From positions 1 through 60,280 of IMG/VR virus record IMGVR_UViG_3300031718_000012: a stretch of DNA of 60,280 nt; one strand, written 5' to 3'. The stretch is from a virus. This document shows, in pieces, positions 16,104 through 53,298 of this stretch. Both the position numbers and the translations under genes were made by a program. Below the pieces are notes generated by a model that was given only the letters and a program-made list of their open reading frames with translations, ran no database searches and was not told the DNA's origin. The number at the start of each line of letters is the position of its first letter. The stretch's first letter is position 1.

Positions 16104-16973
16104 TTACTCCCAGGCTTTCCCGAGATGGCCCATCTTGACGTCGGTGGTGAGATTCGGATTCGCCAGGAAATCGTACGAGAGCAAACCGAAGCCGCCGGGG
16201 TCATCACTGACCGGGCACTTCGTTCCCCACGTCACATCCCAGGAATTCTCGAACCAGACGGCGCCGGGATTCGGCGCGCCAGGGCACCGAATGTCATCGT
16301 CGTATCCGATCAGCGCGTGTAGCGCGTGACCACCTTGCAGTGTTTCGCGCGACAGGTTCGGGTAGGGAATCAACCCGGTCCGCGCGGCATCGTCGCTCTC
16401 GAATGAATCGTAAACCGCGACGCCGATGACGGCCGTGTAGTCCGACAGGATGCACGACTTTATGTTCGCGATTACGTTTCCGATGGTGTGAAACGCGCCG
16501 CCAGGATATTGCGCGGCCGTTGCGATCTGCGCGGCGTTCGGGCGAACATTGCAGACGTTCTCGTCATACGGCATATCGGTAAGAGGACACCAACCGAATC
16601 CCCCGGCCTTGGGATCTGGAACCTGGACCGCCGACGAAATCATCGCGCCGACATCGCCCTGGGTGAACGTGCCTTCGAGGATCCGCTCCATCGCGTACGC
16701 GAATGCCGGGGAGAAAACTACCGGGCCGACTTGAGGTTTCCAGCGCAGATAAAGGCGCTCACCAAACGAGCAGCACGCGTGGCCGTCGCAGGATCCTTGC
16801 GTGCCCTGATTCTTGACCTTGGGAATTCTCCCCGAGACGAATGCGCGGCGTGGCCACGCGGACGGCGCCGGTGCTTTGACCAGGTGCGAGGGGAACCCGG
16901 GGGCCGCATGATCTGGAAGAGACGAAAGCAAGCCATAACGATGACCTTTAGGCGAGAGCTGCAGTTGCGGCAT
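16104..16973 (-). CDS. Papain-like (C1) cysteine peptidase
   Basis: A 289-residue protein with a papain-family catalytic layout: oxyanion Q56 in KNQGTQGSC, nucleophile C62, general base H216 in GGHALHALIGYDDD, and N243 in WFENSWDVTWG. No signal peptide is evident from ATG 16973 (AAAGGA 9 bases upstream). Its place beside DUF5675-like and holin-like genes suggests a role in release or in host takeover. Phage papain-like peptidases are uncommon but known. The first 45 residues may be a propeptide or linker. A large inverted repeat sits just before the gene. Confidence 0.8.
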   Translation of the reverse strand: MPQLQLSPKGHRYGLLSSLPDHAAPGFPSHLVKAPAPSAWPRRAFVSGRIPKVKNQGTQGSCDGHACCSFGERLYLRWKPQVGPVVFSPAFAYAMERILEGTFTQGDVGAMISSAVQVPDPKAGGFGWCPLTDMPYDENVCNVRPNAAQIATAAQYPGGAFHTIGNVIANIKSCILSDYTAVIGVAVYDSFESDDAARTGLIPYPNLSRETLQGGHALHALIGYDDDIRCPGAPNPGAVWFENSWDVTWGTKCPVSDDPGGFGLLSYDFLANPNLTTDVKMGHLGKAWE

Positions 16974-16993
16974 GTGTGGTGTCCTTTCCGGCT

Positions 16994-17025
16994 GGCCCGT
17001 CAAGCTGCATTCAACTTGACGGGCC
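16994..17025 (-). repeat. Intergenic palindromic element, copy 1
   Basis: Eleven-base perfect arms (16994-17004 and 17015-17025, GGCCCGTCAAG and its complement) around a 10-base centre. On the minus strand it carries GCCCGTCAAGTTGAATGCA, 20 bases before the peptidase ATG. The same core occurs near 42.8 kb and at 59.1 kb, each time upstream of a gene in the same orientation. No T-tract, so not an ordinary terminator. Confidence 0.75.
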
Positions 17026-17103
17026 ATGTCCGGTGCTCGCGGGTTCGGAAGGTGTCTAAACTTCCCTGTACCTACCCGCTAACCGCGCGTCGTGGGATTA
17101 TGC

Positions 17104-17784
17104 CTACAGGTGCAAATGTTCCGCGATCGAAATGTGCATGTAGACCGTAGCCGGGCAATTCAGACCAGCCTTTGCGCCGGATTCCAGAATTTCGTTGTAG
17201 CCCGACTTGAAGCTCGCGTGCGACCGCTTGTGCGGGACGATTGGCAGCACGGTCGTTGAACCGTTCGCCGACCTCGAGTAAACGGCCGTCAGGCGCGCCT
17301 TAGCGACCTGCGCCAGTTGCGGTTCTTTGGTCATGAAGCCCGCGATTGTTGAGAGTACGAACTGGATGATTCCAGCGATCGTGCTGAGCAGGTTCCCGCC
17401 AGGCAGACCGAGAGATGACAGGAAGTCGCCGAAATTGTCGACCACGGCTTTGACCGCGGCTTCGACCTTTTGCAGCGCGCCCTGGGGCGGCGGGGTGACT
17501 GCCAAATATTCAACGGCCGCGCCTTTCAGGTCGACGAGGGCAGCCTTCGCGACGGCGAGCGCGAGCAGAATCGGCGCGGAGAAAACAAAACCGTTCGCCG
17601 TAAGCAGAGTTTGAATCGAGTTGATGGCGTCCTCGGCGATCGGAGCGAAGTTTAGGAGCTCCTGCACCGGGTCGCAACCTTCCATGAGTAATGCGCCAGC
17701 GCCGACGCCGGCGACCCTCAAAACTGGAAACGCAAGTGCGCCCTTCACCAGATGGCCGTTGAACATTCGTCGTGAGAGATTCAT
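17104..17784 (-). CDS. Tat-type exported lipoprotein candidate (226 aa)
   Basis: ATG 17784 after AAGGAG. The N-terminus has a twin-arginine pattern SRRMF followed by a hydrophobic core (ALAFPVLRVAGVGAGALL) and a lipobox-like MEGC at residues 35-38, suggesting Tat export and lipid attachment. The mature part is helical and Ala-rich with several hydrophobic helices (PILLALAVAKAALVDLKG; LLSTIAGIIQFVLSTIAGF) and a basic C-terminal region. No family recognised. It lies between the peptidase and the holin-like genes. Confidence 0.6.
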   Translation of the reverse strand: MNLSRRMFNGHLVKGALAFPVLRVAGVGAGALLMEGCDPVQELLNFAPIAEDAINSIQTLLTANGFVFSAPILLALAVAKAALVDLKGAAVEYLAVTPPPQGALQKVEAAVKAVVDNFGDFLSSLGLPGGNLLSTIAGIIQFVLSTIAGFMTKEPQLAQVAKARLTAVYSRSANGSTTVLPIVPHKRSHASFKSGYNEILESGAKAGLNCPATVYMHISIAEHLHL

Positions 17785-17915
17785 GTTGCTCCTTTCGTGC
17801 ATTTATTTTTGCGGCAAGACTCTGCCGAGTCCTCCCAACTCATCCCGCTATCCGCAGCGCCAGAAACGTTTTTGTCACGGGTGCAGACCTGCCTTCCCAC
17901 TCTTGCCGCAACTCG

Positions 17916-19265: not shown

Positions 19266-21575
19266 CTAAATGCTCAGAGCTGCTTTTACCTTCGACACGA
19301 ACCAGGCAAACATCGAGCTGACTGGCGACGGCGCCGTCGGAGTTCCGCCGCCGACGGCTGTTAGTGGATGTGGATAGGTGTACGGGGTGTAGGTTAAGCC
19401 CCAAGTGTTCGTTGCGGTGCAGGTGTAGAATTTTCCTTGGCCGCTGTAGCTTGCGGGATTCGACCCAGCCGTCGTATTCCACGATCCCTGATCCGTTGCC
19501 CAATATCCTACCCCGGTGGTACAGGTCGTTGGACGAAGAGCGAGCGTTCCGTGGCCGTCACCCGTAGTTCCATTGAACGGGGTACAGGTGCTGCCAGTAG
19601 GACATGAAGTTTGCGCGGTTTGATTCGATGGCTCGATAAAATAATTCCGGTTTGCCAAATATCGCAGACTCTGGTTCGATTCCAGCTTTACTGGATGCGC
19701 GATTGTCAGGCCGTTCAAAGTTGTCGCGATGATATGTGGGGGAACTAAACTTGCCGTGGGTATAAGCGGCAGAGGTACTTGAACTCCGGGCGTGCTTTGG
19801 ATGGCCTGCTCCATTGCGCGCCCCGGATCGTCAAGCGTTTGCGGCGCTCGCGTAATGACGCCGACATCCCCGGTATTCCAGGTCTGGGCTGAGCTGGTGT
19901 TAGTCGTTGGAGTCGCGTCGTACGTGAATGCCGTTCCAGAGTTTGTCGCAATCGTACTGCAAAACCCCTGGGTAACATTGCAAAGCGAGTAAGGTGACCC
20001 GCTGTTTACCCATTGGCTCGCGGTATAGCTTACCGAGCTTGTCGGAGTGCTGGCCCCATTAGACCCGGTGTGAGTGAACGCCCCATATAGAGTCGTTTCG
20101 GTGAGTCTGATCTGACCGCCATTGGTGAACGCCAGACCATTCAATCCGAATGAAGTAAAGCCACCGACGGTCAGCGAGTTCGCAGTGTTCGACAGGACGA
20201 AAGCTGTAGCGTCAGTTGTTGCATCCCACGCGAGCCATATATTCGCTCCAGGTGAACCGACGTTCAGGGTAAACGCGCCCGAGGTCCACGGAGAAGTCGT
20301 AATTGGAATAGTCGACCCACTCACGGTGCCAATGACCCAGGGGCCGGTATCGACTCTGTTGTCGAGAGCGTCGTAAACTGATCCGCCGCAGCGCCCATAT
20401 CCAGTGTCGCGAAAGCACCTCTGATGCTGGATGTTGAGCAGAAAAGTTAAAGTGGTAGCTCCGCCGAGGCAGCTAACATTCCCGCCGAAAGCCAGCGCGA
20501 TTCCGTCGCGCATGTTGAACGGACCCACGTCGTCGCCGTTGCACTCCGTTATGCTGTTCCAGACGAACGTATCTTCCAGAGAAACGTACTTGCATCCCAA
20601 TCTAGCTCTTCCGCTGGTGTCGGTTCCGTGACAAGTCAAGAACGGCGCGCCCAGACTCCCGCCAGCGTAGCTGTTGAATCGAGATTCGAAACGTCCGCCG
20701 CCGCCAAATCCGGGTTGGCCCTTGGGCGGAAACTCGCTCTCGGTCGTTCCGTACTGCCAGTTATTGTTTTCCAGATATATTTGAGTGCTGTCCGCGTTCC
20801 CTGGCCAAGGTTGCGTCCAAGAATTGTCGCCGTATCCCGCCGTGCCACCAGCAGGAACGCCCATATAGTTCGACATTTCTAAGTTCGAACATTCGATAGA
20901 GCCAGACCCGGCAAGAGGGATACAGGTCGTGTGGTCGATCACTCCGAAGAAATTGTCGATGAGAATTTTTCCGTTGGTCCCCGAACCGTTCGCGGAGTTG
21001 CTGAAACCTGTAAAAGAAATGTTGTCGATGCGGATGAAGGGAGCGCCGGAAGTTGTTTCGACTCCATACAGACTCATTGGCGGGCCGCCGTTCGTCAGCG
21101 CCCCCGTGCAGGGCGACGGATTGCCGCTGCCGTTGCATGGAACTATCGCTAGCATCGAAACGTGAACGTATTGCCCTGGAATCGCCGCCGAACATCCAGC
21201 TTGCGCTACTCCGTTAAAGGCGATTAGCGGAGTCGAACTATTATTGAATTGATCCAAGATAGTTGTGCTGTTGGTTGCCGAGCCCAATTGGGAAGGTAGA
21301 TTGTTTGGTACGCCAGCACCGATTATCGAAATGCATTTATTTGTGTTTACGCCAGCGCCCCAGACACAAGTACCCGCAGGGACGGCAACCGTGTCGCCAT
21401 TTGACGTGAGGTTTATGGCGTTCTGTACGTCGGTCGAGCCGCAAGTGACGGCGTTGAAAGTCGTAGCGCCGGCGACGCTGGGGAACGCCAGGAAGAGCCC
21501 GGCCATAAATATCGGCTGCCAGACCAGCTCAAGCGCTAGGACAAATGTTAGGACGTACGCTACAAATTTTTTCAT
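19266..21575 (-). CDS. Exported beta-helix/appendage-like protein (769 aa)
   Basis: The N-terminus is a signal peptide (KKFVAYVLTFVLALELVW, a second hydrophobic stretch, then VAGA). The mature part begins with a beta-helix-like entry, VQNAINLTSNGDTVAVPAGT, as in pectate-lyase-fold tailspikes, followed by long Ser/Thr/Gly/Asn-rich beta sequence with scattered Cys pairs. ATG 21575 (second of two) fits AGGTGG. It is the last of four fibre-like genes downstream of the baseplate. It could be a receptor- or polysaccharide-binding spike, or a secreted surface protein. Confidence 0.6.
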   Translation of the reverse strand: MKKFVAYVLTFVLALELVWQPIFMAGLFLAFPSVAGATTFNAVTCGSTDVQNAINLTSNGDTVAVPAGTCVWGAGVNTNKCISIIGAGVPNNLPSQLGSATNSTTILDQFNNSSTPLIAFNGVAQAGCSAAIPGQYVHVSMLAIVPCNGSGNPSPCTGALTNGGPPMSLYGVETTSGAPFIRIDNISFTGFSNSANGSGTNGKILIDNFFGVIDHTTCIPLAGSGSIECSNLEMSNYMGVPAGGTAGYGDNSWTQPWPGNADSTQIYLENNNWQYGTTESEFPPKGQPGFGGGGRFESRFNSYAGGSLGAPFLTCHGTDTSGRARLGCKYVSLEDTFVWNSITECNGDDVGPFNMRDGIALAFGGNVSCLGGATTLTFLLNIQHQRCFRDTGYGRCGGSVYDALDNRVDTGPWVIGTVSGSTIPITTSPWTSGAFTLNVGSPGANIWLAWDATTDATAFVLSNTANSLTVGGFTSFGLNGLAFTNGGQIRLTETTLYGAFTHTGSNGASTPTSSVSYTASQWVNSGSPYSLCNVTQGFCSTIATNSGTAFTYDATPTTNTSSAQTWNTGDVGVITRAPQTLDDPGRAMEQAIQSTPGVQVPLPLIPTASLVPPHIIATTLNGLTIAHPVKLESNQSLRYLANRNYFIEPSNQTAQTSCPTGSTCTPFNGTTGDGHGTLALRPTTCTTGVGYWATDQGSWNTTAGSNPASYSGQGKFYTCTATNTWGLTYTPYTYPHPLTAVGGGTPTAPSPVSSMFAWFVSKVKAALSI

Positions 21576-21582
21576 CATCCAC

Positions 21583-24500
21583 CTAGTGATTGGCGATTAT
21601 CAGAGCAACCGCATATTGCGGAGTCGTTGAGCAGCCGGTTGACGCCAGCGTGCTGGCTGCGGCGTAAAGTAGAGCGTTGACCGAAACGTTGGACGCGATC
21701 GACACCACACTTTGGACGAACGTTCCTGAGCCATTACCGACTGTGCCATTCCCCGAAATCGTCAGTGTCGGCCCGGCAATGGTCTGGGTGTTACCGTTCG
21801 CGTCGGTGTAGGTGATCGTCGGCTGAGCCGTGTTGCTCGCAGCTGAACAGCCGACGCCGGCGCGCGTCTGGTAAACCTGAATTCCAACGATGGCGCCACT
21901 GAAGAAGCTAGCCGCGCTGCTCGAGCCGAGCGCTGCACCAAAATTGGTCGCAGCGGAAACGGGATTGCCGCCCGCGATCGTTGCAGCGACGTTCAACACG
22001 TTAGAGGAATTGTTTTGGTTTAATCCCCCCGAGAAAGACAGCGGGGCGTCTCCCTCGTAATCGGTCGACGTCGCCGTGTTGGCCGCGACGAACATCGTGC
22101 GCCATTTGTTCAGGACCGGGACCGACGCGCTGCCGTTGAAAGTATCGCCACCGGCAAATGCGACCGTTGAGTTCGTGGTTCCGACGGTCATCAAGAAAAT
22201 CTGGAACGTGGTCGATGGCTGCGTGGCTGGAAAGGTATACGCGCAAGCCGCCGTGCAATTCATGATGACGAGCTTGCCGTTGTCGGCGGAAGTTGCTCCC
22301 TGGGACGTCGTGTACGTGACCGACCCGTTGAACCCGCCGCCGCCCGAACCGTTCGACGCTGCGGTGATCAGGCCTTTCGCGTTGACGGTAATGTTCGCAT
22401 TCGTGAAAGAGCCGACATTCGAGTTGACCGTGGCAAGCGTTGTAACCAAGCCTCCGGCTGTGGTGGTTAGGTCGCCAGTAAGCGCGGGGAATGCGGTGCC
22501 CGATAGCCGCCCATTCGCATCGGTCGGAAGAATCTCAGCCGACCAGTAATTGTTCGAAGCATCGGTCCACCAGAAAGCACACTCGGGATTTCCGCTCGCT
22601 CCCTGGCTACGCAGGATCTGCGTCGCATTTCCGTTTACCGTCGACGTCGTTGGCGTAACAGTCGCGACGACCGTTCCGGTATTGCACAACGCGAAAGCGA
22701 AACCGCTGGTGAGCGTCGCGCCCGAAGGTACGCTCAGCGCCGTCGACGTGGTGTTATTCGTGAGCTGGACGAGGTGTACGTTATCGGTCTGGGTGACCGC
22801 CGGCGTCGCGCTCGATTGCGCGTCGACTGGAACGCCAGGCGTCGAATTCACGATCGCCGTGCCGTTGTACATGAGCGTCTGGCCCGACGTGAGCGACGTC
22901 AGCGTGAGTGTGGTGCCCTGCAATTTCGAAACAGTTTGTGACGTGCTAGTTCCGGTCAGGTCGCCGCCCGCCGTGAAACTTCCGCTGGGACATCCGGACG
23001 TCGTAGCGCCGCCGTTCGCATCGGTGCACAGCGCCGCGCTGGTTCCGGTAATAGTCCCTGCCGACAATACGTTGACATCAGTGCCTTGAATCGCGGTGAA
23101 GAAGACAGCTTTCCCGGATCCCAGTTCGTCGGTGAGCGCGGCCGCAAGATTCGCGCTGGACGGAGTGCCCAGAAAAGTTGCGACACCGGTGCCCAAGCCC
23201 GAGACTCCGGTTGAAATTGGCAGACCGGTGGCGTTCGTGAGTACTCCGCTCGCGGGAGTGCCGAGAGCGGGAGTGACCAGCGTCGGCGACGTAGCGAAGA
23301 CGAGGGCGCCCGTTCCGGTTTCTCCCGTGACGGCCGCGGCCAGATTCGCGCTCGACGGAGTCGCGAGAAACGTGGCTACCCCGGCTGCCAGGCCAGACAC
23401 ACCGGTTGAAATCGGTAGACCTGTCGCGTTAGTCAACACCCCGCTTGCTGGCGTCCCGAGCGCCGGGGTGACAAACGTCGGCGATGTCGCGAAGACCAAC
23501 GCGCCGGTTCCGGTTTCGTCGGAAATTACTCCAGCGAGTTGCGCGGAAGTTGTCGCGGCGAACTGGTTCAGGCCGGATCCCGTGACGCCGCAAGTGGCGC
23601 ACGCGATCGCGCCGGCCGCGCTGATGGTGATTGGCGAGCTGCCGCTCAGTCCAGCCGATCCGACATTCGCGATCGGTATCCCCGTCGGCATCATCGCCGC
23701 CGTCAGACCGTTCAAGGTCGCGCCAGCCGTAAGCGTTAGAATTCCCGTAGCGCCCAGCGTCAAGGTATGCGGAGATGTGAACGTCAAATCCGGTTCGCAA
23801 CCGAACGCGCCGCCATTGTTGATTTGAACTGACAGCGCGGTTGTGGTGCAGGGGACGCCGGCGCTGCCGTTCGCCGCTGCGGTAATTGAGCCGTCAGCAG
23901 CAACCGTGATATTCGCGTTGGTGTAGCTGCCCGGAGTTACCGCTGTCGCCGCGATGTTGGCGTGCGGGATCCCGGTGGGGAGCATGGCGACCGTCAAACC
24001 GTTCAGCGTGGACCCGGCCGCGAGCGTCAGGATTCCGGTGGCACTCAAGGTGAGAGTGTGCGGCGAAGTGAAAGTTAAATCCGGCTCGCAAGCAAAAGCT
24101 CCGGAGACGTTGAGCTGCACCGAGCCCGCGACGGCGGTGCACGGAACCGTGATGGTTCCATTCGACGCCGCGGTGATCGACCCGTCAGCGGCGACGGTGA
24201 TGTTGGCGTTCGTATAGCTGCCGGGCGTGACGGCCGTGGGCGCGATGTTCGCGTGCGCGAGCTGCGCGACCAGGCTTAATACGCCGTTCGTGTCGAAGAA
24301 AATTCCGGTGGAAGCGGCGAGAGTCGGAAGCGCCAGGCCGCGCAAACCGACGACGGTTTGTGACGTCAGTGTCCCGTTCAGATCCCCGCCGGCTGCGAAC
24401 AGCGGACAAGAAACCGTGGTCGCGCCGCCGTTGCCGTCGGTGCAAAGCAAGAGCGCTGAAGTCCCTCCGATCGTTCCCGAGGAAAGCAGGTTGCTGTCGG

Positions 24501-25146
24501 TGCCCTGGACCGCGAGCGTCATGGTGTCGACGTAGGGCGAACCGGACGTTCCGGATCCGGTTTGCGTCAGCGACCATACACGAGAAGGCGCGGCGATAAT
24601 TTGCAGGAAATTATTTGACCCGGTAATCGCGGTCTGCGCGCCCCACTGGTAGCTCGCAAAAATGCTCGAGCCGCTGGAAGATCCTCCGAAGATGAATCCA
24701 TCGACGGTGACCAGGCCGGCGAATCCGGTCGACGTGGTTGAATCATGAAGGAATCCGATGACCCAGGTTCCGGCGGTCGGCGGGTTCGATTGTGCGTGGC
24801 ACTCGGTCGACGTAGTCGGGCTGTTGACGACGTAGCTCGCGCCGGAATTGAAAGTGTTCGAGTCGAAGGTGCAAAGCGCCAAGCCTCCGAAAGCAAGCGC
24901 GGCTGGCGTCGTCGCGGAAACTCCCGCGCCACCGACGACGATATAGGTCGGAACCTGAGTGTCCGTGATGCCGGCATTGATTGCACGGCCGGCGAGAGAA
25001 ACTTTTGCGGTTCCATTGAGCGTGGTTCCCGTCGTTGTGTCGTTTGGCTGGGGGAACGCGCGCGCGCCATTTATGACCGCCTGGCCCTGGGCCCCCAGGA
25101 CGGCGAGAAGAATGAGCAGAACCGGTGCGAAAAGTTTTTTGATCAT
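21583..25146 (-). CDS. Giant repetitive exported fibre-like protein (1187 aa)
   Basis: Residues 1-22 form a clear Sec signal peptide (MIKKLFAPVLLILLAVLGA, then QGQA). The rest is Gly/Ser/Thr/Ala-rich with phage tail-fibre motifs: repeated TPGSYTNANITVAADGSITA segments, two 65-residue repeats (ALVFATSPT, TPALGTPASGVLTNATGLP), and a C-terminal region typical of fibre ends. The start overlaps the previous gene (ATGA). Tail fibres are normally cytoplasmic during assembly, so the signal peptide is odd. Confidence 0.65.
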   Translation of the reverse strand: MIKKLFAPVLLILLAVLGAQGQAVINGARAFPQPNDTTTGTTLNGTAKVSLAGRAINAGITDTQVPTYIVVGGAGVSATTPAALAFGGLALCTFDSNTFNSGASYVVNSPTTSTECHAQSNPPTAGTWVIGFLHDSTTSTGFAGLVTVDGFIFGGSSSGSSIFASYQWGAQTAITGSNNFLQIIAAPSRVWSLTQTGSGTSGSPYVDTMTLAVQGTDSNLLSSGTIGGTSALLLCTDGNGGATTVSCPLFAAGGDLNGTLTSQTVVGLRGLALPTLAASTGIFFDTNGVLSLVAQLAHANIAPTAVTPGSYTNANITVAADGSITAASNGTITVPCTAVAGSVQLNVSGAFACEPDLTFTSPHTLTLSATGILTLAAGSTLNGLTVAMLPTGIPHANIAATAVTPGSYTNANITVAADGSITAAANGSAGVPCTTTALSVQINNGGAFGCEPDLTFTSPHTLTLGATGILTLTAGATLNGLTAAMMPTGIPIANVGSAGLSGSSPITISAAGAIACATCGVTGSGLNQFAATTSAQLAGVISDETGTGALVFATSPTFVTPALGTPASGVLTNATGLPISTGVSGLAAGVATFLATPSSANLAAAVTGETGTGALVFATSPTLVTPALGTPASGVLTNATGLPISTGVSGLGTGVATFLGTPSSANLAAALTDELGSGKAVFFTAIQGTDVNVLSAGTITGTSAALCTDANGGATTSGCPSGSFTAGGDLTGTSTSQTVSKLQGTTLTLTSLTSGQTLMYNGTAIVNSTPGVPVDAQSSATPAVTQTDNVHLVQLTNNTTSTALSVPSGATLTSGFAFALCNTGTVVATVTPTTSTVNGNATQILRSQGASGNPECAFWWTDASNNYWSAEILPTDANGRLSGTAFPALTGDLTTTAGGLVTTLATVNSNVGSFTNANITVNAKGLITAASNGSGGGGFNGSVTYTTSQGATSADNGKLVIMNCTAACAYTFPATQPSTTFQIFLMTVGTTNSTVAFAGGDTFNGSASVPVLNKWRTMFVAANTATSTDYEGDAPLSFSGGLNQNNSSNVLNVAATIAGGNPVSAATNFGAALGSSSAASFFSGAIVGIQVYQTRAGVGCSAASNTAQPTITYTDANGNTQTIAGPTLTISGNGTVGNGSGTFVQSVVSIASNVSVNALLYAAASTLASTGCSTTPQYAVALIIANH
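23131..23520 (-). repeat. Two tandem 195-bp repeats in the fibre-like gene
   Basis: Two adjacent copies of a 65-codon unit (about 23326-23520 and 23131-23325) encode nearly the same peptide beginning ETGTGALVFATSPT. A shorter, more diverged continuation follows. A second repeat class (segments containing GSYTNANITVAADGS) recurs at about 290-bp spacing between 23.87 and 24.25 kb. Such repeats allow fibre length change by recombination. Confidence 0.75.
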
Positions 25147-26078
25147 TGCGTCAGCACAACCTTTCCGGCCTGAGCGAGCGCCCAGAGAATCGTTACATTC
25201 CCTGAGCTGTCCACGTTCAGGCTGGCGGGTTCGATACGATTTCCGTTCGAGTCATACGTTGCGACCTGCAGGCTGGGCCCCAGGTTGTGAGTCGCCACTG
25301 GAATCGACCAGGTGGTGGAGCTGGTTTCGGTCTGCGCGAATACCGCGGGCCCCGTTCCGTTCAGAACGCAATAACCGGATTGCGCGATCGAGAAGGTGAC
25401 AACGACGTCGAACGTGGTTTGGTTGATCGTCCAATTCGCGGGCAGTAGCGCGTTCGCGGGTGATGCGTTGTCATAGCACGCGAGAATCAGATGGGTGGTA
25501 GCGAGCTGGTGAACTGAGCCAAGCATGGTGACCGTGGTGACTGAGACAAACGACTGCGCGTAGTTCGGCGCGGCCGGTCCTCCACCGCCCCCGCCTCCAC
25601 CCCCGCCGCCCTGCCTCCAGGTCTCAATCCACTGCGACCCGATGAGCGTCAGCCCGATCGCGTCGGTCGACGTGCTGCAGGTCCATGGCGACACGGCCAG
25701 CCGGATATCCACGGAACTGACAATCGAAGTGAAGTGGTCACCAGTGCCACAGAAAATCTGAATCGATTTGCCCGGGAACCCGCCGTTGAACGCGGTAATG
25801 TTCACGTTCGCGACGTTCTGCGTAAGCCAGTTGGTATAGCCAGCGACCGAGGGAGACGACGTTGACTGCTGCAGCTTGCCGTAACCGCCTAGCAGTCCAT
25901 CCAGAATGTTGAAGTTCGCGTTAAGGCAGTTGCCCCACACGCCGATGTTTCCGATGGGCGGAAGCCATAGCCGGACGTTTATGGTTGGCGTGCAAGGAAA
26001 ATACTGCGCATGCGCCACGCCCGAAACGACCGCCAGAAGAAAAACTAGAGCCGCGAGTTTTAGAATTTTCATTCGCAT
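25143..26078 (-). CDS. Exported fibre-like protein (311 aa)
   Basis: ATG 26078 lies 10 bases beyond a strong terminator T-tract. The N-terminus is a textbook signal peptide (MKILKLAALVFLLAVVSG, cleavage-like AHAQ). The mature part has a head-like region (NANFNILDGLLGGYGKLQ), a Gly run of 11 residues as linker near residue 160, then a beta-rich C-terminal domain also seen as receptor-binding or carrier domains in fibres. It overlaps the next fibre gene. No close family assigned. Confidence 0.6.
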   Translation of the reverse strand: MRMKILKLAALVFLLAVVSGVAHAQYFPCTPTINVRLWLPPIGNIGVWGNCLNANFNILDGLLGGYGKLQQSTSSPSVAGYTNWLTQNVANVNITAFNGGFPGKSIQIFCGTGDHFTSIVSSVDIRLAVSPWTCSTSTDAIGLTLIGSQWIETWRQGGGGGGGGGGGPAAPNYAQSFVSVTTVTMLGSVHQLATTHLILACYDNASPANALLPANWTINQTTFDVVVTFSIAQSGYCVLNGTGPAVFAQTETSSTTWSIPVATHNLGPSLQVATYDSNGNRIEPASLNVDSSGNVTILWALAQAGKVVLTQ

Positions 26079-26087
26079 GTCGTCACC

Positions 26088-26129
26088 AAAAAAAAATGGC
26101 TCGCAAGCGCCGAAGCGCCTACGAGCCAT
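26088..26129 (-). terminator. Strong intrinsic terminator inside the fibre module
   Basis: On the minus strand arms ATGGCTCG and CGAGCCAT (26129-26122 and 26103-26096) with an inner GCGC hairpin, followed by nine T (26096-26088). It would end transcripts from the baseplate and fibre genes upstream and leave the downstream fibre genes needing antitermination or another promoter. Confidence 0.93.
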
Positions 26130-26165
26130 CAGAGTCGGTCCTAAAATTCAGGAGCTCAGATCAAG
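26130..26165 (-). ncRNA. Conserved terminator-linked RNA element, copy A
   Basis: Directly upstream of the terminator on the minus strand: ATCTGAGCTCC, a short hairpin (TCCT/AGGA), then GGACCGACTCTGA. Nearly the same arrangement stands before the terminator at 44.28 kb, with changed but compensating hairpin bases. This suggests a structured RNA or a processing signal. It matches no RNA family that I recognise with confidence. Confidence 0.5.
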
Positions 26166-26168
26166 GCT

Positions 26169-26360
26169 CTACAACCTGGTTTCTTTCAACTCTCGCTTAA
26201 GACTCTTGTGCAAACATTCCGCGTCGACCAGCTCGCCATCGCGAAAGTGAATCGACACCGTTCCGTTTCGCGGACCCACTTTGAGAGCGTGAAACAAAAC
26301 TTCATCGACTTCGAGCTTTTCCCCTGTCGACGATTTGACTTCGCACTTGGGCTGGGCCAC
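26169..26360 (-). CDS. Small hypothetical protein (63 aa)
   Basis: GTG 26360 with TAGGAGAG five bases upstream. A small charged protein with strand-like segments (KLEVDEVLFHALKVGP; GTVSIHFRDGELVDAECLHK). No family. It follows the fibre-like gene at 26369 by 8 bases and precedes the terminator-linked element. Confidence 0.55.
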   Translation of the reverse strand: MAQPKCEVKSSTGEKLEVDEVLFHALKVGPRNGTVSIHFRDGELVDAECLHKSLKRELKETRL

Positions 26361-26368
26361 GCGCTCTC

Positions 26369-27040
26369 CTACAGACTTGGGACCACCGTGAACTGCATGT
26401 AGCTTTCGTTCACGGTAAAAATTTGGCCGAAGACCTCGAACGACATCGAAGATGCATCGGTCTGACCTTTCGATGTGAACGTGACGGTCGCGCCATTCGC
26501 GTAGTCGGCGGTCACAAAACTTGCGGCGAGTGAACCGTTGGCATTGTTCGCGACGGTATCGGCCTGTGACGGCCCCATGATCGTCGTGCCATCGGTGACG
26601 TACATGCTGATCGTGTTGCCGCTCGATGCCGTGTTCGATGACCAAAAATACATATAGGTGATCAGCACGCGGCAAGGGCAACCGGATGCCGGCATGGTGA
26701 TGGACTGACTGTCGAGCGAGTTCAGCACGCCGCCTGAAATGGTGGTCGTTCCGGCGAGAAACTTGGTGGTGACCGCCTGGACCGGACCGCCGCAGGAAAG
26801 CGGAATCGTGGTGAGCAAGCCACCCGTCGAAGCCTGGACGCATTTGCCGGTGGTCAAGGCCGAATCGGTGAGGGTCGTGAAGACTCCGGTCGATGGTGTG
26901 GTTGCCCCAATCGGAGATGAATCAATCGTTGAGGACTGTACCGCGATGCTGCGGACGACTGTATTCGCCGCGCCGACCGCCACGACGAAAAGCGCGGCGA
27001 GGAATAGGGTTTTCGCGGTATTGACCAGAAAATTCTTCAC
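26369..27040 (-). CDS. Exported fibre-like protein (223 aa)
   Basis: GTG 27040 lies 7 bases after GGGAGG. Residues 1-22 read as a signal peptide (VKNFLVNTAKTLFLAALFVV, then AVGAANT). The mature part starts with a fibre-type motif (STIDSSPIGATTPSTGVFTT), which in many phage fibres precedes the collagen- or GDSL-like tip, then a beta-sandwich-like C-terminal domain. First of four successive fibre-like genes with signal peptides. Confidence 0.6.
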   Translation of the reverse strand: MKNFLVNTAKTLFLAALFVVAVGAANTVVRSIAVQSSTIDSSPIGATTPSTGVFTTLTDSALTTGKCVQASTGGLLTTIPLSCGGPVQAVTTKFLAGTTTISGGVLNSLDSQSITMPASGCPCRVLITYMYFWSSNTASSGNTISMYVTDGTTIMGPSQADTVANNANGSLAASFVTADYANGATVTFTSKGQTDASSMSFEVFGQIFTVNESYMQFTVVPSL

Positions 27041-27042
27041 GC

Positions 27043-27135
27043 CTAGCCTCCCCACTTCGCGTTCCCGATGGCGTTGCCGAGCGAGGCTGCCGCTTGCTTG
27101 GCCGCGTTTTTTACCTTGGACCAAAACTTCTTCAT
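27043..27135 (-). CDS. 30-aa cationic amphipathic peptide
   Basis: A complete short frame fills the 97-base gap between two genes: ATG 27135 is two bases after the preceding stop and the TAG at 27045-27043 is two bases before the next GTG. The peptide starts MKKFWSKVKNAAKQAAASLG and ends with AKWGG. It is net basic and helix-amphipathic, like a membrane-active peptide. The binding site is weak, but the exact fit between neighbours supports translation. Confidence 0.5.
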   Translation of the reverse strand: MKKFWSKVKNAAKQAAASLGNAIGNAKWGG

Positions 27136-27137
27136 AT

Positions 27138-27704
27138 TTAGCTCGAAGTCATCGGATACGGATGTAGTGTACCACTCGAATCAACCATAAAAGATTGGAG
27201 TGACGTCTTGTTGGCCCCAGTGTCAATAGCCGCGCCCGGTACATCAGTCGGCCACACGAAAGTATGACCTCCGGCGGAGTTCTGGTGAATGATGTAGCTG
27301 ATCAAATCTCCCGGCTCTTTGTTGGCGTCGGTCGCACCAGTGACGTTTCCGGTCAGTGTAATTTCCTGAGTGACGCTCTGGGAATAATCGAAATGCGGGG
27401 TTGGGCTGAACGCCACGACGTTGATTCCGGGATGGGCTACACCGCCGATCGCGGTTATGAACTGCGCCTCGAGCGCCGCCACGTTTCCGTTGTCGGTGAT
27501 ATTCACGCCCAGCGTATCGGCGATGAATTGTGTGAGCATGGCTGCGACGACGCTGGCCTGTCGCCAGGTCTTGTTCATCTGAGCCGAAGCGATGATCCCG
27601 GACTGGACGCCGACCGTCTGCGGACCGGAACCCGCATAGGTGCCCTGAGATTCGACGTTTGCTCCCGCCCCAGTTGCAAAAGGAAGATATTCAGTAGTTG
27701 CCAT
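27138..27704 (-). CDS. Tail fibre/baseplate-attached protein (188 aa)
   Basis: The N-terminal part (YLPFATGAGANVESQGTYAG, then QSGIIASAQMNKTWRQASV and LTQFIADTLG) is a conserved phage tail-fibre attachment region. The C-terminal part is beta-rich (QEITLTGNVTGAT; GGHTFVWPTDVPG) as in fibre tips. No signal peptide here, unlike the next four appendage genes. It directly follows the DUF2612 baseplate gene, the usual place for the fibre anchor. Confidence 0.75.
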   Translation of the reverse strand: MATTEYLPFATGAGANVESQGTYAGSGPQTVGVQSGIIASAQMNKTWRQASVVAAMLTQFIADTLGVNITDNGNVAALEAQFITAIGGVAHPGINVVAFSPTPHFDYSQSVTQEITLTGNVTGATDANKEPGDLISYIIHQNSAGGHTFVWPTDVPGAAIDTGANKTSLQSFMVDSSGTLHPYPMTSS

Positions 27705-27712
27705 TGGCGCTC

Positions 27713-29362
27713 CTAAATGTTTATCGGCACGGCCAGCGCGCCGACGTCCGGTCCTGAAATCGTGCTGTTCTCGACATCTGCCCCAAAGATGGGCGTCCCT
27801 GGAACGCTCGGTGCGTAGAATCCAGTTATCCTCACGCCAGCCGGGCGCATGAGAAAAAATCCCTGAGTGAAAAGCGTGATCGTCACGACATCGGTCGGTG
27901 GATTCAGAAACGCAATTAGCATCGACATGTCCTGATTGTCTTGCACCAAGATTCCGAAGCCGGTTCCGAAGACCTGGTTCCAGATGTTATAGATCCCGGG
28001 CACCGTGCCGTCCCAGGCGTTTTGGGCGATGAACAGAAAGAGCAACGTGCGATAGTCTTCGTCATCGAGCGACGTCACGCCAGGCAGATCCCCGCCGAAC
28101 CACCCGAAAGATGAGTTGATTCCCGGCGCACCATTGTTGGCCGCGATTCCCGGACTGCCGGCTGAATACGTGGTATCGACGTCGGTCAAGAAGACCACGC
28201 CATTCACTCGGCCAACGAGCGACGTGCCTTGAATTTCGAGACACAGCAAATCGCCGAACAGCGGCGTGTATGGAACGCTTTGGATGATCGTGCCGACGCC
28301 GCCGGCCACGACGTAAAGATTCAGAGTGTTTCCATTCACGGGCGCGAGTGCATAAAAGTTTCCACCCAAGGTCATGCGAACCGCGGGCCCGATGGTTCCA
28401 CCATTCGTGATGTAGCACTCGGCGAACTGGTCGTTCGTAAACTCGGCCGGGCCAGAAGTCCAATTCGTGATGTAGGTATCGAGCACTGTGGCATTGCACG
28501 ACATTGCGACTGCGGGAATACCGCCGAGGACAGTCGTATCGGTCCCAGAGATGATCGTCGTCCCGTTCAGCTCCACAGAAATGGTTGACCCAACGGCGCG
28601 AAGTCCGATCGTATCGCCCAGGTTTACGGTCCCGGTCCAAGTCGGCCCGATTTGGTTTTCGTTTCCGTCCGTTATCGCGATGTTGAAACCGGGGCCAAGC
28701 GGACCGGTCAAATCCGCAACGTAGAATTGCAAAGTAGATTGCGTAAATCTGACCAGGGGGAAAATCGCGCCGTCGCACTGTCCGATTGTTATTTCGGAAA
28801 GTTGATTGTCTCCAAAAAGCGCGCCGACATAGGCTTCTCCGCAAATGCTTGCCGAATCCGAAGCGCAGCATTTGTCTGAAATGATTTGTAACGGGTCCGT
28901 CGAACCGAATACCGGCCCCAGGTCGATCTCGGCCCACTCGGCGGGGTTGAGCGGATTTTCATTCGCGCGGGTGAAGTTGTCGGAAGGATTCTGCGTCCAG
29001 AATGACGCGGCCCAGGTGCCGTTCGCCGATTGGCTCACCGCCTGGTCGCCAGCGATTCCCATCTGGCCGTTGGCTGAAGTCCAGGCCGAGCCGAGCGACG
29101 TCGCGTTGGCGCGCTGGAAATTGTCTTCGGCGAGCGGAATGTCGATCGCTTGTTTCAGGTTCCGGCTCACGCCGACCCACTGCCCGATTTTGTCGAGCTG
29201 GTCGCCGACCGCTTCATCGACGTCGAACAGGTCCGAAAAACTCGCCAGCAAATTCTGCTGGTCGACGCCGGCCTGGGCGAGCAACGACACCAAAGCCATG
29301 AAGTTGGGCTTCTGGTTATGCTCCGACGTGATGAGCTTCAGATAGTCGTTGATGTTCGCCAT
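27713..29362 (-). CDS. DUF2612 baseplate protein with inserted jelly-roll domains
   Basis: Residues 1-72 (DYLKLITSEHNQKPNFM, SDLFDVDEAVGDQLDKIGQW) match the N-terminal half of DUF2612, a phage protein found after baseplate J. Residues 431-549 (SLDDEDYRTLLFLFIAQNAW, NQVFGTGFGILVQDNQDM) match its C-terminal half. Between them are two segments beginning with DNF-like motifs (EDNFQRANATSLGSAW near 80; DNFTRANENPLNPAEW near 128); the first is short and looks truncated, the second resembles a concanavalin/LamG-type sandwich. The insert probably adds glycan binding to the baseplate edge. Confidence 0.8.
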   Translation of the reverse strand: MANINDYLKLITSEHNQKPNFMALVSLLAQAGVDQQNLLASFSDLFDVDEAVGDQLDKIGQWVGVSRNLKQAIDIPLAEDNFQRANATSLGSAWTSANGQMGIAGDQAVSQSANGTWAASFWTQNPSDNFTRANENPLNPAEWAEIDLGPVFGSTDPLQIISDKCCASDSASICGEAYVGALFGDNQLSEITIGQCDGAIFPLVRFTQSTLQFYVADLTGPLGPGFNIAITDGNENQIGPTWTGTVNLGDTIGLRAVGSTISVELNGTTIISGTDTTVLGGIPAVAMSCNATVLDTYITNWTSGPAEFTNDQFAECYITNGGTIGPAVRMTLGGNFYALAPVNGNTLNLYVVAGGVGTIIQSVPYTPLFGDLLCLEIQGTSLVGRVNGVVFLTDVDTTYSAGSPGIAANNGAPGINSSFGWFGGDLPGVTSLDDEDYRTLLFLFIAQNAWDGTVPGIYNIWNQVFGTGFGILVQDNQDMSMLIAFLNPPTDVVTITLFTQGFFLMRPAGVRITGFYAPSVPGTPIFGADVENSTISGPDVGALAVPINI

Positions 29363-29365
29363 TTT

Positions 29366-30544
29366 TTATAGAGTCGTCAGCACCACGTTCGACGCATCGC
29401 AGGACGCGGCCTGATTAAACAAAATTGAAATGTCATCTTCTTCCGTCGGGTTCGCCGCGATGCCGATGAACAATTCGGTGACATGGTACGTCAGGCCTTC
29501 CGGATTCCGGTAATTGTTTGCCGGTCCGAAAATCCAGTTGTAGAAAACATCCTGGCCGATGGGCAAGCCGTTGATGAAGTTTACGATCGCGTTGACCAGG
29601 TCCACGCCATCCTGCGCGACGTATCCGGTGAGCGGTTGAATCGTAACCGCGACAAAGATTGGCGTCTCGGCCAGTTCAAAAAAGTTGATGGTGATTGGCA
29701 CTCCGGAAGGGTCCACCACAATTTGGGATGTCGTGCCGAACGTCCCGGTCCCTGGGGATTTGGTCTGCTCGATTAGCGTCGCGATAGTGAGGATGTCTCC
29801 GCCCAAAACTACAGCCGAAATAAAATGGCCCGGGATCCCATTTATATCGGGAACGCCGGTATTGTTTTCGTACACGATCGAGCGTTCCACGCCCATGCTA
29901 TTCGCGATCGCGGCGGCAATCGTCGAAAGCGGAGTCTTGGCCGAAATCGAAGTCGATACCGACTGGCGTTGACGGAGCGTGGCGTCATCTTCGACGGCCG
30001 CTCCTACTGTCGCCGCGGACGAATTATTCACTGACTGCCAGCCTTGAACCACGGTTTGAATCTGCGTGATGGTGTTGGGCGCACCCACGATGGCGCCGGG
30101 GTCCTGCGCCGTCGCGGTGACGTTGATTGTTCCGGCCATGGGAATCGTTACGCTTGCCGGAAGGTCCCAAAGATTCCCGGCTGTATCAGCGACAATTCCG
30201 TTGGTGATGACGGTGCCGGCGACGCCTACAATCGTGACCGTCGCGGTGCTGTTCGTTCCCGCCTCGCGCGCCAGGCCATTGATCTTGACCAGCGCGGACA
30301 GTCCTGCGCCTTGGGCGAACGTCGGCATGAAACTGTTGTATGCGGCGATGATCGCCTGATTTGTGTTGAAGATGGCCAGGGCGAATACTGCGATCATCTG
30401 GTAGTCCTGCGTATCGGGCGTCAAATAAATATCAGCGCCGAAAATCGTCTGCAACGACTCGATGAGACTGTTTAGAATGTCGTTGTACGCTGGGGCGCTG
30501 ATGCCCGTCGCGTCGATCGTTGGTGCCAAAGTAGCAAGCGGCAT
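29366..30544 (-). CDS. Baseplate J-like protein
   Basis: A 392-residue Mu gp47/P2 J-type wedge protein. It starts with the typical YNDILNSLIESLQTIFGADI stretch, has Q-x-x-D near the QDYQMIAVFALAIFNTNQ helix, and EDDATLRQRQSVSTS near residue 185, a hallmark of this family, followed by VYENNTGVPDINGIPGH. It forms part of the six-fold baseplate with gp25 encoded just upstream. ATG 30544 follows the gp25 gene by 5 bases. Confidence 0.9.
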   Translation of the reverse strand: MPLATLAPTIDATGISAPAYNDILNSLIESLQTIFGADIYLTPDTQDYQMIAVFALAIFNTNQAIIAAYNSFMPTFAQGAGLSALVKINGLAREAGTNSTATVTIVGVAGTVITNGIVADTAGNLWDLPASVTIPMAGTINVTATAQDPGAIVGAPNTITQIQTVVQGWQSVNNSSAATVGAAVEDDATLRQRQSVSTSISAKTPLSTIAAAIANSMGVERSIVYENNTGVPDINGIPGHFISAVVLGGDILTIATLIEQTKSPGTGTFGTTSQIVVDPSGVPITINFFELAETPIFVAVTIQPLTGYVAQDGVDLVNAIVNFINGLPIGQDVFYNWIFGPANNYRNPEGLTYHVTELFIGIAANPTEEDDISILFNQAASCDASNVVLTTL

Positions 30545-44344: not shown

Positions 44345-44851
44345 TTACAGAACGCCTTTGTTCGAACTCGCTACCACCTGCGCCGTGCAAGACGTCCCGG
44401 TGAAGGTGCCACTCGAAACAATTTCGAAACCGGTATAGCCCGCAAGGTTCACGGTGTAATTCACGGCGGTCACGTTGAAAGCGGGGAACGCGGCTCCGGT
44501 GACGATCACGGGTACGTTCGAAGTGTAGACGCCGGCGAAATAGGGAATCGCGAAATAGTTCGTCTTGGTGGGCCCGACGTCGGCGGTCGCCTTGATCTGC
44601 AGGGTGCAAGCGGTCGCGGTCCCGGAAATTATCACCTGGGCGGTGGAGACGCCGCCGATGAGCTGAGTCTTGGTCTGCGAGGTCGCGGTGAAGACCATCG
44701 CGGGGTATTGCACGTTCGGAAGGAGTATCGCTTGTGAACCGGGGTAGTTCGGAGTTTGTGCTGTCAGATGCCGCTCGGCGAAACCGCCGACGATGAGCAA
44801 CGCGGCCATCACTGCGATCGAAGAAATTTTTCGGAGCCAGGTGTTATTCAT
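44345..44851 (-). CDS. Exported hypothetical protein (168 aa)
   Basis: GGAGGAAAT precedes ATG 44851. Residues 1-31 resemble a signal peptide (WLRKISSIAVMAALLIVGGF, then a TAQT-type cleavage). The mature part is a small beta-sandwich-like domain (PAMVFTATSQTKTQLIGGVS, TACTLQIKATADVG, ITGAAFPAFNVTAVNY). No family recognised. It sits in the head module, where an exported protein is unexpected. Confidence 0.6.
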   Translation of the reverse strand: MNNTWLRKISSIAVMAALLIVGGFAERHLTAQTPNYPGSQAILLPNVQYPAMVFTATSQTKTQLIGGVSTAQVIISGTATACTLQIKATADVGPTKTNYFAIPYFAGVYTSNVPVIVTGAAFPAFNVTAVNYTVNLAGYTGFEIVSSGTFTGTSCTAQVVASSNKGVL

Positions 44852-52577: not shown

Positions 52578-52864
52578 GGGATTTTTATCGTTTCGATGTT
52601 TGAAAGTGGGCTGGTGCCGTTGGCGTTCGTTGCGGTTTCCGCATAGTCGTATGACAGACCGCTCGCCACCGACGTATCGACAAATGACGTACCTGTGGTC
52701 ACGCCCACGCGGATCCAGCCGTCCGCGCCATGGGGCGACCGCATTACGTTATACGACGTGGCACCTGGAACCTTGCTCCAGCTCGCCACCACGGAATGAG
52801 AAGAACCGCCGCCGCATCCCTTGAACATCAGGAATAGAGCGGCGGCGGCAACTAGGAGCTTCAT
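52574..52864 (-). CDS. Lipoprotein with fibronectin type III domain (96 aa)
   Basis: Residues 1-17 form a lipoprotein signal (MKLLVAAAALFLMFKGC). The mature part is one FN3 domain: VVASWSKVPGATSYNVMRSP, GVTTGTSFVDTSVASGLSYD, then AETATNANGTSPLS. FN3 domains mediate protein or carbohydrate contact. A phage product tethered to the host membrane could change the cell surface. Starts in an ATGA overlap with the next exported FN3-like gene. Confidence 0.75.
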   Translation of the reverse strand: MKLLVAAAALFLMFKGCGGGSSHSVVASWSKVPGATSYNVMRSPHGADGWIRVGVTTGTSFVDTSVASGLSYDYAETATNANGTSPLSNIETIKIP

Positions 52865-53298
52865 TGTAGAACGAGTGGGTTCTGAGTGGGCGCGCCTGGG
52901 GGCCCGGGATTTGGCGTGACGCCGGACGTCTCATTCGACTTCGGACCTTCGCCAGAACAATTCGTTGCGCTGATCGTATAGAAAGCCGCGGCTCCCGGCG
53001 TGACGTTGGTGTCGATGAACTGCAGATTCGCCGGCGGCGGATTTAGAACCGTGAGCAGAACTTCGTTGCCCGATGCCGTGCCTTTGTAAATCGTGTTCGC
53101 CGTGACGGCCGTCGAACCGCTTCCACTCGGGCAAGTCACTTTCGGATCCACGACGCCCTGGCCCCACGACAAAGTCGTTTGATGTTGCGTGGCCGAAGCT
53201 TTCAACTGCGGCGCTGCCGCATGCACGCGGCCCATTCCGGCGACGGCGAGAACTGCGGTCAGAGCTGAGAACAGGAAAAGCGATGCGCTGAGTTTCAT
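52861..53298 (-). CDS. Exported FN3-like protein (145 aa)
   Basis: Residues 1-27 are a Sec signal peptide (MKLSASLFLFSALTAVLAVA, cleavage near VHAA). The rest is FN3-like: TQHQTTLSWGQGVVDPKVT, TIYKGTASGNEVLLTVLNPP and TPGAAAFYTISATNCSGEGP, ending with a Pro-rich tail. GAGGGCACACC is the binding site. First of a pair with the downstream FN3 lipoprotein. Confidence 0.7.
   Translation of the reverse strand: MKLSASLFLFSALTAVLAVAGMGRVHAAAPQLKASATQHQTTLSWGQGVVDPKVTCPSGSGSTAVTANTIYKGTASGNEVLLTVLNPPPANLQFIDTNVTPGAAAFYTISATNCSGEGPKSNETSGVTPNPGPPGAPTQNPLVLQ

Follow-up and report, generated by a model that had tools for sequence, protein, structure and literature searches.

By common assumption, tail fibres reach their fold inside the cytoplasm, in many cases helped by chaperones of their own. 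The 60,280-nt viral sequence analysed here (the window) encodes four fibre-like proteins that appear to begin with Sec signal peptides, and their export would raise a puzzle: how does a virus that is built in the cytoplasm acquire fibres from outside of it? We ask whether these proteins are exported and, if they are, whether they are destined for the virion.

Signal peptides in the fibre cassette

The window, an IMG/VR virus record, derives from a tailed soil phage and carries genes for portal, capsid and DUF3383 proteins. Its minus strand encodes baseplate J (29366..30544; PF04865), a baseplate DUF2612 protein of 549 aa (27713..29362; PF11041, E = 8.8e−35) and a short anchor or adaptor of 188 aa (27138..27704; PHROG 11303 tail fiber, E = 1.5e−24, supported by alignment). 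The DUF2612 protein carries an insertion of ~330 residues, most relatives being ~220 aa long, and this non-exported insertion is a candidate receptor-binding site. On the same strand, the anchor is followed by the four fibre-like genes, whose positions we verified in the record, and then by small membrane-protein and putative lysis genes. The four genes thus lie after the baseplate and anchor genes, in the position of tail fibres and spikes.

Fibre-like protein 1 (26369..27040; 223 aa, GTG start) opens with the predicted signal peptide MKNFLVNTAKTLFLAALFVVAVGA, to be cleaved before ANT, and has 4 Cys in its mature part. Fibre-like protein 2 (25143..26078; 311 aa) has the predicted signal MRMKILKLAALVFLLAVVSGVAHA before QYF, 6 mature Cys, a WGxxxNxNxxxLD domain at its N-terminus (identified by alignment), and a C-terminus that matches a PHROG virion structural protein (E = 7e−5). 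The long repeat fibre 3 (21583..25146; 1187 aa) has the predicted signal MIKKLFAPVLLILLAVLGA(QG) before Q and 18 mature Cys, and its repeats also occur in signal-less podoviral fibres (tblastn and blastp). The beta-helix-like spike 4 (19266..21575; 769 aa) has 20 Cys and a long hydrophobic leader that ends near SVAGA/TTF; its N-terminal motif and C-terminal domain are matched in Acidobacteriota proteins. AlphaFold models of fibres 2 and 4 (pLDDT of 50 and 33) gave no disulphide geometry, trimers or confirmation of a beta-helix. A Lom/Ail-type lysogenic outer-membrane protein was considered and rejected, as none of the four proteins has a Pfam match.

Gene starts and signal peptides were called with our own scripts, the latter by a simple score of n-, h- and c-regions. 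In a calibration on Escherichia coli K-12, scores of at least 5.3 were reached by 11 of 12 secreted, 0 of 47 cytosolic and 3 of 18 inner-membrane proteins. Fibre-like proteins 1 to 4 score 7.0, 9.1, 7.4 and 5.3, respectively. A positive n-region, a hydrophobic core and an AxA-type cleavage site are clear in the first three and borderline in the last, and the first-pass observation of signals on the four proteins holds with this reservation. The leader of spike 4 consists of two hydrophobic segments with E, W, Q and P in between, and this borderline case may be a long signal or, alternatively, a helix that is not cleaved. The anchor has no signal by the same score, as had been proposed, and neither does J. 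Of the 63 genes in the window that encode 100 aa or more, 9 score at least 5.3, and when gene order is shuffled, four such genes in a row occur with P = 0.012; recurrence in related phages is a stronger argument than this value. Further signal-like or lipoprotein-like N-termini occur outside the fibre cassette, in the minus-strand genes 17104-17802, 44345-44851 and 52861-53298, one of which adjoins capsid and DUF2213 genes.

The four genes are less strictly consecutive than originally described: a 63-codon ORF (26169-26360) and an intrinsic terminator hairpin with a T-run tail (26095..26130, minus strand; −29.8 kcal/mol, z = −8.1) intervene between genes 1 and 2. The hairpin lies directly upstream of fibre gene 2 and divides genes 2-4 from the tail operon, and no promoter-like site was found between that operon and genes 2-4. 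An alternative upstream ATG at 26129 would mask the signal of fibre 2. Because this codon falls inside the strong hairpin, the ATG at 26078 is the likely start. The stop codon of gene 2 overlaps the start codon of gene 3 (25146/25143), and gene 4 begins within ~10 bases of gene 3, an arrangement from which genes 2-4 look translationally coupled. Between the anchor and fibre gene 1, a 30-codon minus-strand ORF (27043-27135) encodes a cationic, helix-like peptide, MKKFWSKVKNAAKQAAASLGNAIGNAKWGG, which is possibly membrane-active or may be a chance frame. Beside the putative lysis genes, the minus-strand gene 16104-17027 has the papain-like motifs QGTQGSCDGHA and GGHALHALIGY and no Pfam match.

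Recurrence in viral relatives and cultured phages

When fibres 2 and 4 were searched directly against viral contigs and cultured phages, no relatives came up, and we therefore used baseplate J and the anchor to collect them. The signal was not used in this collection, in which several viral records are fragments. At places 1 to 4 after the anchor, signal-bearing genes number 13/96, 9/40, 7/39 and 5/40; elsewhere, they number 0/231 among J and anchor genes and 69/1366 among other genes. Four signal-bearing genes in a row recur in L022/L025. Signal-bearing homologues of fibre-like protein 1 were found in L098, L169, L100 and L009, and a homologue without a signal in L007. Modules common to recognised fibres were identified in fibre 3 and in a relative from L014, which shares them with Bcep781, BcepC6B and Mulvp2 fibres; they were identified weakly in fibre 1 and not in fibre 4. 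In the window, G406 (L169) and G002 (L025), all fibre-like proteins (surveyed as low-charge, G/S/T/N-rich proteins of at least 150 aa) are signal-bearing, the anchor excepted. In L008 (14722-15561) and L010 (14719-15432), a gene with a lipoprotein signal follows the exported fibre, and the one from L010 has an SGNH-like GDSIF motif.

Proteobacteria prophages with J, DUF2612 and anchor genes have the same baseplate and anchor gene order as the window. In these prophages, however, the anchor has the length of a complete fibre, the next gene encodes a Caudo_TAP chaperone or a DUF4376 protein, and signals are absent. Caudo_TAP was found in 0 of 12 signal-group records, some of them fragments, compared to 6 of 6 signal-less relatives. 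A search for DUF4376 matched nowhere, and its absence in the signal group carries no weight. In a search for hosts, the window's baseplate was found in only one Acidobacteriota MAG, where it belongs to a prophage with ordinary signal-less fibres. For the viral contigs, the window among them, we infer hosts from the weak resemblance of their fibres to those of Tunturiibacter phages.

Among these cultured phages, Tunturi_1, Tunturi_2, Tunturi_4 and Tunturi_5 (Demina et al. 2025, PMC11924767) resemble the window in having runs of signal-bearing fibre or spike genes with even Cys numbers, although they are from different phage lineages and their fibres are only weakly similar to those of the window. 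The term "signal peptide" does not occur in the main text of that paper. The signal-bearing genes are gp12-14, gp16 and gp17 in Tunturi_1 and Tunturi_2 (gp13, with a score of 4.85, was assigned by eye), gp111, gp113 and gp114 in Tunturi_4, and six consecutive fibre genes, gp337-342, in Tunturi_5. As in the scheme of the window, Tunturi_4 also has a short WGxxxNxN protein without a signal (gp112). The deposited start of Tunturi_4 gp111 (PP885687; L228 20077-23172) is too late and omits the signal; a longer frame that starts with TTG has a signal like that of gp113 and raises the Cys number from 9 to 12. Tunturi_3, which shares its host strain with Tunturi_1 and Tunturi_2, has ordinary fibres in the parts of the genome that were read.

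The tail fiber gp49 of Burkholderia phage Bcep781 also combines a signal peptide with 14 mature Cys. Unlike the window, Bcep781 has one exported fibre, and its record notes a "possible signal peptide domain" and says nothing on the role of the signal. BcepC6B gp19 and PBR31 gp35 are likewise signal-bearing, at the place where the signal-less homologue Mulvp2_69 has another N-terminal domain; BcepC6B and PBR31 also encode a separate signal-less fibre or spike. Single cases have thus been noticed before, as in the Bcep781 record, and our literature search found no paper that describes signal-bearing tail fibres as a class. Nor did it find virion proteomics for phages of this kind; virion mass spectrometry of JC1 and BcepIL02 was set aside as a test, since their fibres lack signals.

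Cysteine parity and homologue boundaries

Exported bacterial proteins favour even Cys numbers (PMC7678975), and the mature Cys counts of the four fibre-like proteins (4, 6, 18 and 20) are all even. We extended the count to 42 signal-bearing fibres in 31 families. In 29 of the 30 families with at least two Cys, the number is always even (P = 2.9e−8 under a null of 0.5; P = 2.7e−5 under a conservative null of 0.64, which allows for falling count distributions). The two odd exceptions among the 42 fibres are a 381-aa protein of L124 and Tunturi_2 gp16 (149 aa). Signal-less genes of the same loci have no such bias (381 even and 488 odd; J, 39 and 46; anchors, 37 and 54). Cys are also gained or lost in pairs: the pair of the WGxxxNxN domain is either present or gone as a whole, and another is complete in L008 and completely missing in L009. 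Even numbers are expected of exported, disulphide-bonded proteins, which supports real export of the fibres. Signal peptides that follow a Q-rule have been reported for phage genes of Porphyromonas gingivalis (PMC10367356), but these genes are of unknown function and are not described as fibres. We found Gln at +1 in 24 of 31 families; because 6 of 12 E. coli and 10 of 20 Acidobacteriota controls pass the same loose test, we do not count the Q-rule as evidence.

Homologues without the hydrophobic N-terminus, which the first-pass annotation would have read as a sign of misread starts or unused signals, do exist. From residue 2 onward, the protein L007 13465-14040 aligns with fibre 1 from residue 26, and L185 10353-12362 with fibre 2 from residue 28; in both fibres, cleavage is predicted after residue 24. 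The L007 gene has a stop codon immediately before its ATG and its product has no Cys, whereas the L185 protein has three Cys, none aligned with Cys of its exported relative, Tunturi_5 gp342. Because both begin by the mature end and lack the Cys pairs, the signal is a discrete optional module rather than a misread start, and it appears to travel together with the disulphide pairs. Several exported fibres keep the N-terminal domain that opens the signal-less L185 protein and Tunturi_4 gp112.

Proposed fates of the fibre-like proteins

The first-pass idea of export is well supported by Cys parity, clean homologue boundaries and recurrence in cultured phages, and we consider it very probable that the fibre-like proteins are exported. 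Between the two fates that had been suggested, a role at the host surface or as decoys and an unusual route of appendage maturation, we lean slightly towards maturation, as the short anchor is the only other fibre-like gene of the phage. The reading that we prefer, at about even odds, is that the proteins are Sec-exported, disulphide-bonded spikes that serve as the phage's own receptor-binding appendages and dock at lysis. Under this proposal, Sec would export the four proteins, signal peptidase I would cut them (spike 4 less surely), and disulphides would form in the periplasm, while the virion, with its baseplate and signal-less short anchor, would be assembled in the cytoplasm. The oxidised fibres would wait outside the inner membrane until lysis brings them together with the virions, and they would then dock, presumably with the short anchor as the platform. 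Export would take the place of the usual cytoplasmic fibre chaperone and yield disulphide-stapled spikes. The parts of this proposal that the sequences support are the signal peptides, the even Cys numbers, the missing chaperone and the lack of another fibre-like gene; from these we infer cleavage, disulphides, incorporation into the virion and docking at lysis.

A quite plausible alternative, to which we nevertheless give well under even credence, is that the proteins are truly exported and never enter the virion, acting instead to mask receptors, to block readsorption to debris or superinfection, or to digest capsule on the host surface or matrix. The evidence for export fits it too, BcepC6B and PBR31 have their exported protein beside a signal-less fibre or spike, relatives carry esterase, lectin and pectate-lyase-like domains, and the motifs of spike 4 are common to bacterial beta-helix proteins. 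The DUF2612 insertion could bind the receptor instead, which also speaks against a virion fate. However, if the proteins are not virion fibres, the phages have none, save the anchor and, in the window, this insertion: no other fibre-like gene is present in the window, L025 or L169 records. The genes also have a late position, between baseplate and putative lysis genes, whereas known exclusion proteins act in lysogens. The N-terminal domain of several exported fibres, moreover, recurs at the start of signal-less proteins.

It is improbable that the N-termini are uncleaved helices for trimer nucleation or for attachment to the virion or membrane, with fibres assembled in the cytoplasm: the long, interrupted leader of spike 4 and weak cleavage sites in some fibre-1 relatives (L008, L101) would suit such helices, but most of the proteins have AxA-type sites, Cys numbers are even, and Cys pairs are gained and lost jointly. 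Chance or wrong start codons are very improbable, for although the run of four by itself reaches only P = 0.012, this reading is largely refuted by homologue boundaries, Cys parity and the longer frame of Tunturi_4 gp111, and it does not account for recurrence in unrelated phages.

Beyond the window, we tentatively suggest, with slightly less than even confidence, that tailed phages of one class, to which most cultured phages of Tunturiibacter (Acidobacteriota) would belong, finish their virions outside the cytoplasm: Sec-exported receptor-binding spikes, oxidised in the periplasm, would dock only at lysis on tails that were built in the cytoplasm. The cultured Tunturi and Bcep781 phages make this model testable now. 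If true, a recurrent two-compartment route would change the annotation of receptor-binding proteins, whose annotated starts are in some cases too late (Tunturi_4 gp111 is an example). It would affect their laboratory expression as well, because disulphides would not form in proteins expressed in the cytoplasm. In soil phages, it would account for the way in which spikes come to be hardened by disulphides.
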